Assembly: GCF_003339775.1 (NCBI RefSeq)
Contig: NZ_CP031090.1
Coordinates: 1 to 38,732, forward strand
Direction: 5' to 3'
Length of the DNA: 38,732 nt
Origin: Spiroplasma phoeniceum P40
GTDB lineage: Bacteria > Bacillota_I > Bacilli_A > Mycoplasmatales > Mycoplasmataceae
Made by a program: the position numbers and the translations under genes. The notes under the pieces were generated by a model, which did not search any database, was not told the origin of the DNA, and was given only the letters and a program-made list of their open reading frames with translations. Each line of letters starts with the position of its first letter. Within the stretch, counting starts at the first letter, position 1. This document shows positions 7,909-8,070 of the stretch, piece after piece.

Positions 7909-8070
7909 TGTTAGCAATTAAATTGCTAGGACAATTAAAAACGGAAACACAACGATTTTTGAACAACAACTGTGTTTCCATAAACATCTTAACATATTTT
8001 ATTTACCTTAGAATATGTTTATCAATTATTATAATGTTTGTGGAAATAGCGGTCTGTTATTTCCCTTTTT
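7909..8070 (+). ncRNA. Candidate structured RNA (about 160 nt) with own promoter and terminator
   Basis: Four hairpins follow the promoter: AGCAATT/AATTGCT (7913-7927), GGAAACACA/TGTGTTTCC (7943-7979), AACATATT/AATATGTT (7991-8019) and GGAAATA/TATTTCC (8042-8064) followed by CTTTTTA, a terminator-like end. The order and sequence of the last three match the leader of the adhesin gene (13376-13513), so the two are paralogous. The ORF that spans this stretch (7908-8144) is broken by a one-base loss in copy C, which argues against coding. Function is unknown; replication control, attenuation or a trans-acting RNA are possible. Confidence 0.6.

Follow-up and report, generated by a model that had tools for sequence, protein, structure and literature searches.

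The hairpin cluster at positions 7909-8070 of a plasmid of Spiroplasma phoeniceum P40 is explained best, with moderate confidence, as a member of a family of transcription attenuators, each of which appears to be under the control of an antisense RNA encoded on its opposite strand. Homology of the family members, a covarying structure, competing helices in computed folds, and conserved signals on both strands were found.

The window, i.e., the whole analysed stretch of 38,732 nucleotides (contig NZ_CP031090.1), is a Spiroplasma plasmid of the pSci type; among the four contigs of the genome it is contig 3. The host dwells in insects and plants. The window is built of tandem units of approximately 14.3-15.0 kb each and contains the pSci-plasmid gene set, namely, T4SS genes and the genes of the coupling protein, ParA and a ScARP-type adhesin. 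The genes referred to below are located as follows:

5803-7329: gene of the coupling protein, with TrwB and TraG domains; the unit 1 product has 508 aa
8464..9117, + strand: pF, 217 aa, downstream of module A2
11933-12709: ParA gene, by domain match
13463 on: ScARP-type adhesin gene, assigned by leader, repeats and signal peptide

The coupling protein has 498 aa in unit 3; in unit 2 (window 20848-22163) its gene is split, leaving two frames, one of 261 aa and one of 174 aa. For pF, no Pfam or NCBIfam match was detected at E <= 0.01. A 56-base perfect palindrome is located 3' of pF (window 9561-9616 and 24602-24657), and long palindromes of other sequence are also present downstream in the loci L018 and L080. 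No relaxase was found in the scanned proteins, the sole hint being a weak match of window 9727-10317 to a MobC / replication-relaxation protein (NCBIfam E 2e-5, far under the cut-off). A good core promoter, ATGGTATAAT, is present at window 11396 on the minus strand, just 5' of the minus-strand gene 11350-10715, which, judged by its place in pSci1, is possibly the pE replication gene.

The element had been taken, from the letters of the window, for a previously undescribed small RNA candidate; it is already known, because it was described by Saillard et al. 2008 (PMC2386487). There it is named IRR (inverted repeat region), comprises five inverted repeats 5' of pF and a sixth after the pF start codon, occurs in S. 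citri pSci1-4, in part in pSci5-6 and in S. kunkelii pSKU146, and is suggested to be a signal in replication or conjugation; promoters, terminators, antisense RNAs or a kinship with the ScARP leader were not found mentioned in the parts consulted. The element analysed here lies upstream of the homologous gene in pSci1, pSci2, pSci3 and pSKU146, as an inverted-repeat cluster 5' of pF. In the open-access literature, no later treatment of the IRR was found, and none of the open-access papers found proposes a switch function for its hairpins.

Three copies of the 7909-8070 hairpins are present in the window, about ten at further sites of the genome, and others in 31 public plasmids, all 31 of which (E 1e-5) belong to Spiroplasma. 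In a search of 296 genomes of the class with the covariance model of the pF-type modules (A), matches under strict filters were confined to the genus. Many copies are closely related, and copy counts are therefore not counts of independent events. Genes located 3' of the A copies are pF, a family of 110-115 aa starting with MRRASY, or, in S. melliferum, the SSB gene. Leaders of the adhesin type (B) precede genes whose products share the signal-peptide type MKKLLS.., on plasmids and on chromosome-sized contigs of three further genomes; an A-like leader was also found before the T4SS coupling protein gene of pSNTEN_6 (L082).

Instead of the two elements per unit proposed in the sequence-only reading, three modules were found, the second (8118-8322) directly after the first. 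The first, A1, contains:

7832..7865: bidirectional terminator-like hairpin ACCTTA..TAAGGT with T/A runs on both sides, 5' of P_A1
7875..7903, + strand: sense promoter P_A1, TTGATA-17-TACAAT, predicted start G7910, kept in most copies
7912..7928, + strand: hairpin h0
7943-7951/7971-7979, + strand: hairpin h1 (GGAAACACA stem, arm 1:2 of A1), variable loop 7952-7970
7991-7999/8011-8019, + strand: hairpin h2 (AACATATT stem)
7975-7987 with 8034-8046, + strand: antiterminator (2:3) of A1, enclosing h2 (7991-8019)
8042..8070, + strand: intrinsic terminator T1 (arm 3:4 of A1), GGAAATA stem 8042-8048/8058-8064, then T5
7930..7979, - strand: predicted antisense RNA asA1, h1 hairpin and U tract (GUUUUUAAUU), ~50 nt

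The promoter TTGATA-17-TACAAT, the stems and the T run of the earlier description are all present at the positions claimed; the start G7910 was placed by the 6-nt rule of PMC5138195. Four terminator-like sites occur in 7750-8480, vs 0.3 in shuffles. The terminator-like hairpin 5' of P_A1 is kept for the opposite strand in 21 of 31 scanned copies, and its loop is inverted between copies. The one-base loss noticed in copy C (37252) does fall in a loop, namely that of the first hairpin; ORF 7908-8144 (78 aa) is gone in this copy. Loop lengths differ by 1-3 bases between copies, and the ORF is thus not conserved, its frame being kept neither in copy C nor generally. The view of the element as a structured non-coding one with its own promoter and terminator, a paralogue of the adhesin leader and fit for a small RNA or a leader, was borne out. 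A short frame after an AAAGGAG site (8087 on) was also considered and rejected: its frame or start varies between copies, and the stretch is better read as the -35 region of P_A2.

The second module, A2, contains:

8096..8110: dyad ATTAAATTATTTAAT overlapping the -35 of P_A2, present in two dissimilar versions, with both-sided change in one pair
8118..8128, + strand: sense promoter P_A2 TGTGGTAAAAT, strict core TRTGNTAWAAT, predicted start A8135
8156..8173: hairpin h5 (arm 1:2 of A2), 6-base variable loop, minus-strand terminator of predicted asA2
8169-8175/8289-8295 and 8177-8184/8279-8286, + strand: antiterminator (2:3) of A2, enclosing h6 and h7
8185-8216 and 8224-8257, + strand: hairpins h6 and h7
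8283..8322, + strand: intrinsic terminator T2 (arm 3:4 of A2), 14 pairs, then T7
8143..8249, - strand: predicted antisense RNA asA2, ~106 nt, three hairpins

In its strict form P_A2 is present in 15 of 28 copies, with near variants in most of the rest. The target gene of A1 in pSci plasmids is ambiguous, because P_A2 follows A1 directly.

The third module, B, is the leader of the adhesin gene:

13259..13283, - strand: terminator 5' of the adhesin leader, predicted end of asB
13278..13288, + strand: sense promoter P_B TGTGGTAAAAT, strict core promoter, predicted start A13295
13335..13519, + strand: leader module B with inverted repeat IR0, h1, h2 and terminator
13252..13406, - strand: predicted antisense RNA asB, ~155 nt, promoter TATGTTAAAAT at 13424-13414, strict core

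The same hairpin series had been claimed to precede the adhesin; it was found at 13375-13519, 5.4 kb off, and its homology to A is backed by DNA search and covariance models. With the adhesin leader as query, DNA search brings up A copies, matched at the first hairpin, with E down to 6e-8; the B covariance model finds A copies with E 9e-4 to 7e-6, and the A model finds adhesin leaders with E 1e-3 to 1.5e-7. The likeness of A and the adhesin leader is true homology, beyond chance. A combined A+B alignment was given up and two separate covariance models were built, because MAFFT misplaced the 3' arm of h2 of B. A natural chimera is present in S. citri pScpC189-1 (L085 ~12968-13385), where a B repeat and h1 are joined to an A-type h2, terminator and module A2; A and B parts are therefore exchangeable.

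Structure is conserved by paired changes in both types. In the stems of the 28 A copies, eight pairs changed on both sides; shuffles gave 3.5, and none of the 500 equalled the observed value. Slid controls were 39-43% paired, vs 97% observed. Changes on both sides affect four of the six pairs of h0; in T1 every cell is paired in the 28 copies, and in T2 98.6% are. For the stems of 14 adhesin leaders, none of 500 shuffles reached the observed values of cells paired, both-sided changes or covariation score, and the other two measures were reached by 12 and 69 of 500. No match to a described RNA family was found in Rfam at gathering score by sequence or covariance, the search suggested with the original description giving only sub-threshold matches at permissive thresholds. 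The best of them over 7780-8480 is the DUF3800-I RNA (RF02969), full-length on the minus strand at 8142-8255, i.e., the asA2 span, with 29.6 bits and E 0.02; its gathering score of 44.2 is not reached, and the match was not seen in 15 other loci in a larger search. This likeness may serve as a lead and does not suggest membership.

The loops of the first hairpins behave differently from their arms. Divergence between copies is 0.8% in the arms vs 34% in the loop of h1, and 0% in the 5' arm vs 60% in the loop of h5; the loops of both hairpins are near saturation.

Inverted loops were also observed. In the B repeat IR0 (window 13344-13376), four exact reverse-complement loop pairs occur among 28 distinct loops, vs 0.0 in shuffles; within this genome, contig 4 has ATCGCCAAAT in place of the window loop ATTTGGCGAT. 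One loop pair of h6 is present in both orientations among copies, and in L136 (S. poulsonii) the entire h1 hairpin is inverted. Loop inversion points to template switching or cruciform processing. An A-C mismatch in the h1 stem of B (G-U on the minus strand) was considered as proof of antisense use, and this argument was dropped because L136 carries the whole h1 inverted.

In each module two competing states were computed. For A1, the two states are nearly equal in computed energy (-38.9 and -37.8 kcal/mol), and the antiterminator is favoured in the computed fold of an RNA ending at 8046. For A2, an RNA ending at 8296 favours the antiterminator in computed folds, whereas the full-length RNA favours the terminator state. 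For B, the computed fold of a truncated RNA favours a long antiterminator helix, and that of an RNA reaching the terminator the terminator state, which is clearly more stable (-60.2 vs -52.8). In the antiterminators 97% (A1) and 98% (A2) of cells are paired. One-sided changes in that of A1 lead only to or from G-U, never A-C; on the + strand, G-U vs A-C cells number 42 vs 0 in the A1 antiterminator, 36 vs 0 in h2 and 13 vs 0 in T2, a bias that would fit an RNA of the + strand. The antiterminator helices are conserved and scarcely covary beyond G-U, 33 of 500 shuffles reaching the observed values; as their pairs vary little except via G-U, covariation neither proves nor disproves the antiterminator.

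In S. melliferum, 5' end mapping defined TRTG-N-TAWAAT as the core promoter; transcription starts some 6 bases further along, at G or A (PMC5138195). Over both strands together, the strict core motif occurs at four sites of the first 15-kb unit, vs 1.15 in shuffles: 8118 (+), 13278 (+), 13424 (-) and 10354 (+). The first three of these sites correspond to P_A2, P_B and the asB promoter, placed and oriented as the antisense model needs. The asB promoter is present in 14 of 14 aligned B copies and in 15 of 17 independent ones, the latter from S. poulsonii, the Nesidiocoris symbiont, S. kunkelii, S. citri and three further genomes, none of them used for motif finding. Our own scan of B by -10/-35 score gave no consistent site, whereas the published extended -10 motif did give one. 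A copy of the adhesin promoter (TTAGATGTGGTAAAATAAATATT) is also located at window 28500 on the minus strand, inside the adhesin gene of the second unit.

For asA2, the putative promoter TATACA-18-TGTTATAAT at 8285-8256 is the best minus-strand site in 24 of 28 copies and the second-best in 3; the looser form RTGNTAWAAT at 8265 (-) is kept in 27 of 28. The asA2 promoter scores 8.8-9.6 in A copies, short of the 10.4 that marks the 95th percentile of the shuffle maximum. The asA2 terminator, h5 with the T run on the minus strand, is present in 26 of 28 pF-type A copies. For asA1, an extended -10, TATGT|TAAGAT at 7996-7986 on the minus strand, is the putative promoter, with G7979 as the start by the 6-nt rule; the -10 reads TAAAAT in 13 copies and TAAGAT in 13, and support for asA1 appears weaker than for asA2 and asB. 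The predicted starts G13406 of asB (7 bases on) and G7979 of asA1 (6 on) both coincide with the first GG of h1 as read on the minus strand. Of 30 B copies, 27 carry the terminator at the predicted end of asB, its stem occurring in 10 different sequences, vs 9.8% of random plasmid windows with such a terminator; a stem that changes in sequence with the hairpin and T run kept is the pattern that would be expected from selection on antisense termination.

The proposed mechanism is as follows. The sense RNA would start at G7910, and the nascent A1 leader would fold into h1 and T1, giving an RNA ending at ~8070. Alternatively, the 3' arm of h1, together with the bases that follow it, would pair with the 5' arm of T1 as the antiterminator, and transcription would continue. 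A short RNA from the opposite strand, covering h1 in A1 or h5-h7 in A2, would occupy the antiterminator strand, and the terminator would win. This layout recurs at 8118-8322 before pF and at 13278-13519 before the adhesin and conjugation genes, and the variable loops would make each antisense RNA act mainly on its own copy. We infer from the sequences the synthesis of these RNAs, their meeting, the resulting termination and a trigger of the balance change. Against the antisense model stand the weakness of lone promoter matches in such AT-rich DNA, the scarce covariation of the antiterminator helices beyond G-U, the greater stability of the terminator state in B, the TAAGAT form of the asA1 -10 in half the copies, the ambiguous target gene of A1 and a possibly neutral variability of the loops.

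Conserved structure, competing helices and terminators before genes would equally be found in attenuator leaders that sense a protein, a ribosome or a small molecule and have no functional antisense RNA. Palindromes give hairpins on both strands anyway, and the opposite-strand signals would then be their by-products. This explanation is possible but unlikely. The asB promoter sits in the 5' arm of h2. The matching arm of 28 A copies shows no change at all, whereas the partner 3' arm drifts, with changes in five of eight columns. The terminator 5' of P_B lies outside the leader and keeps its minus-strand T run as the stem sequence changes, and the asA2 -10 is situated in a stretch unpaired in the leader models.

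A signal at the DNA level, following the proposal of Saillard et al., is improbable. The hairpins would act as (single-stranded) DNA in a transfer origin or replication region, as would suit the location of the element, with the coupling protein gene on one side and the following block of genes on the other, the SSB gene downstream in S. melliferum, the weak MobC-like match at 9727-10317, and palindrome loops inverted between copies, which would indicate DNA hairpins or template switching. However, homologous modules stand right before the start codons of adhesin and coupling protein genes, and there are many per plasmid, which does not suit a single origin. Signals for promoters, ribosome binding and termination are conserved, and the pair changes appear as G-U on one of the strands. 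The replication protein of these plasmids is presumably pE, encoded away from the IRR. The title of Breton et al. 2008, as cited in PMC3485318, names a novel replication protein and replication region on these plasmids.

Very little speaks for A as a trans-acting small RNA pairing with the adhesin leader B, as the sequence-only reading had suggested: the shared arms GGAAACAC / GTTTCC permit cross-pairing, and A has a stand-alone promoter and terminator, but the computed A x B duplex, at -62 kcal/mol, lies within the range of shuffled pairs (mean -43, sd 9, best -67), the loops differ, and A and B are both sense paralogues of one layout. Relative to the other option offered there, two controls by the same factor, an own antisense RNA for each leader would be the more specific reading. 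A type I toxin-antitoxin locus with convergent RNAs, for which the overlap of predicted opposite-strand RNAs on a plasmid could be cited, is hardly credible, since no ORF is conserved, the 78-aa frame being broken in copy C with loops varying by 1-3 bases and a short frame from 8158 being lost in the L089 copy through a 7-base loop.

The proposed attenuator shares with known countertranscript systems a sense promoter and a leader ending in an intrinsic terminator before the gene and, in computed folds, an antiterminator that excludes the terminator. An antisense RNA gene on the opposite strand, overlapping the leader, is predicted; its putative promoter and terminator are conserved for asA2 and asB and weaker for asA1. 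In pT181 and pIP501, a sense leader, an antisense RNA, competing helices and a terminator control the replication initiator gene, whereas the downstream genes in Spiroplasma are those of the adhesin, T4SS parts, pF or SSB, not a replication initiator. In the Enterococcus plasmid pCF10, prgQ transcripts are made to terminate by Anti-Q RNA, which arises from a convergent promoter (PMC6540685), and, according to the abstract of PMC8265641, T4SS genes and the T4SS adhesin PrgB lie downstream in the prgQ operon. prgQ/Anti-Q is the best match, with a terminator leader, an opposite-strand RNA favouring termination, and adhesin and T4SS genes downstream, the Spiroplasma RNAs being predicted from sequence. 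No sequence kinship with it was found, and, in contrast to pCF10, the Spiroplasma unit has three modules, each with a predicted antisense RNA that has its own promoter near the target hairpin.

For scarp2b, a gene of pSci5, a 2016 study describes ON and OFF clones that differ neither in the coding nor in the upstream sequence; according to its authors, no existing mechanism accounts for them (PMC4804543). An antisense-controlled bistable leader would be a candidate mechanism; leader B precedes ScARP-type genes, the adhesin family to which scarp2b belongs. A wider, speculative extension, to which we give a low probability, is that these elements are RNA switches of wall-less bacteria in which the saturated, sometimes inverted loops are identity tags: each co-resident plasmid would silence only its own adhesin and transfer genes via its own antisense RNA, inversion or exchange of loops would create new specificities, and bistability would underlie the ON/OFF scarp2b clones with unchanged sequence. 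No report of antisense attenuation on Spiroplasma plasmids was found in the open-access literature; since 2008 the hairpins have been on record with a proposed role. If the explanation is true, they would provide an independent parallel to pCF10, in which an antisense RNA restrains an operon for adhesion and conjugation.
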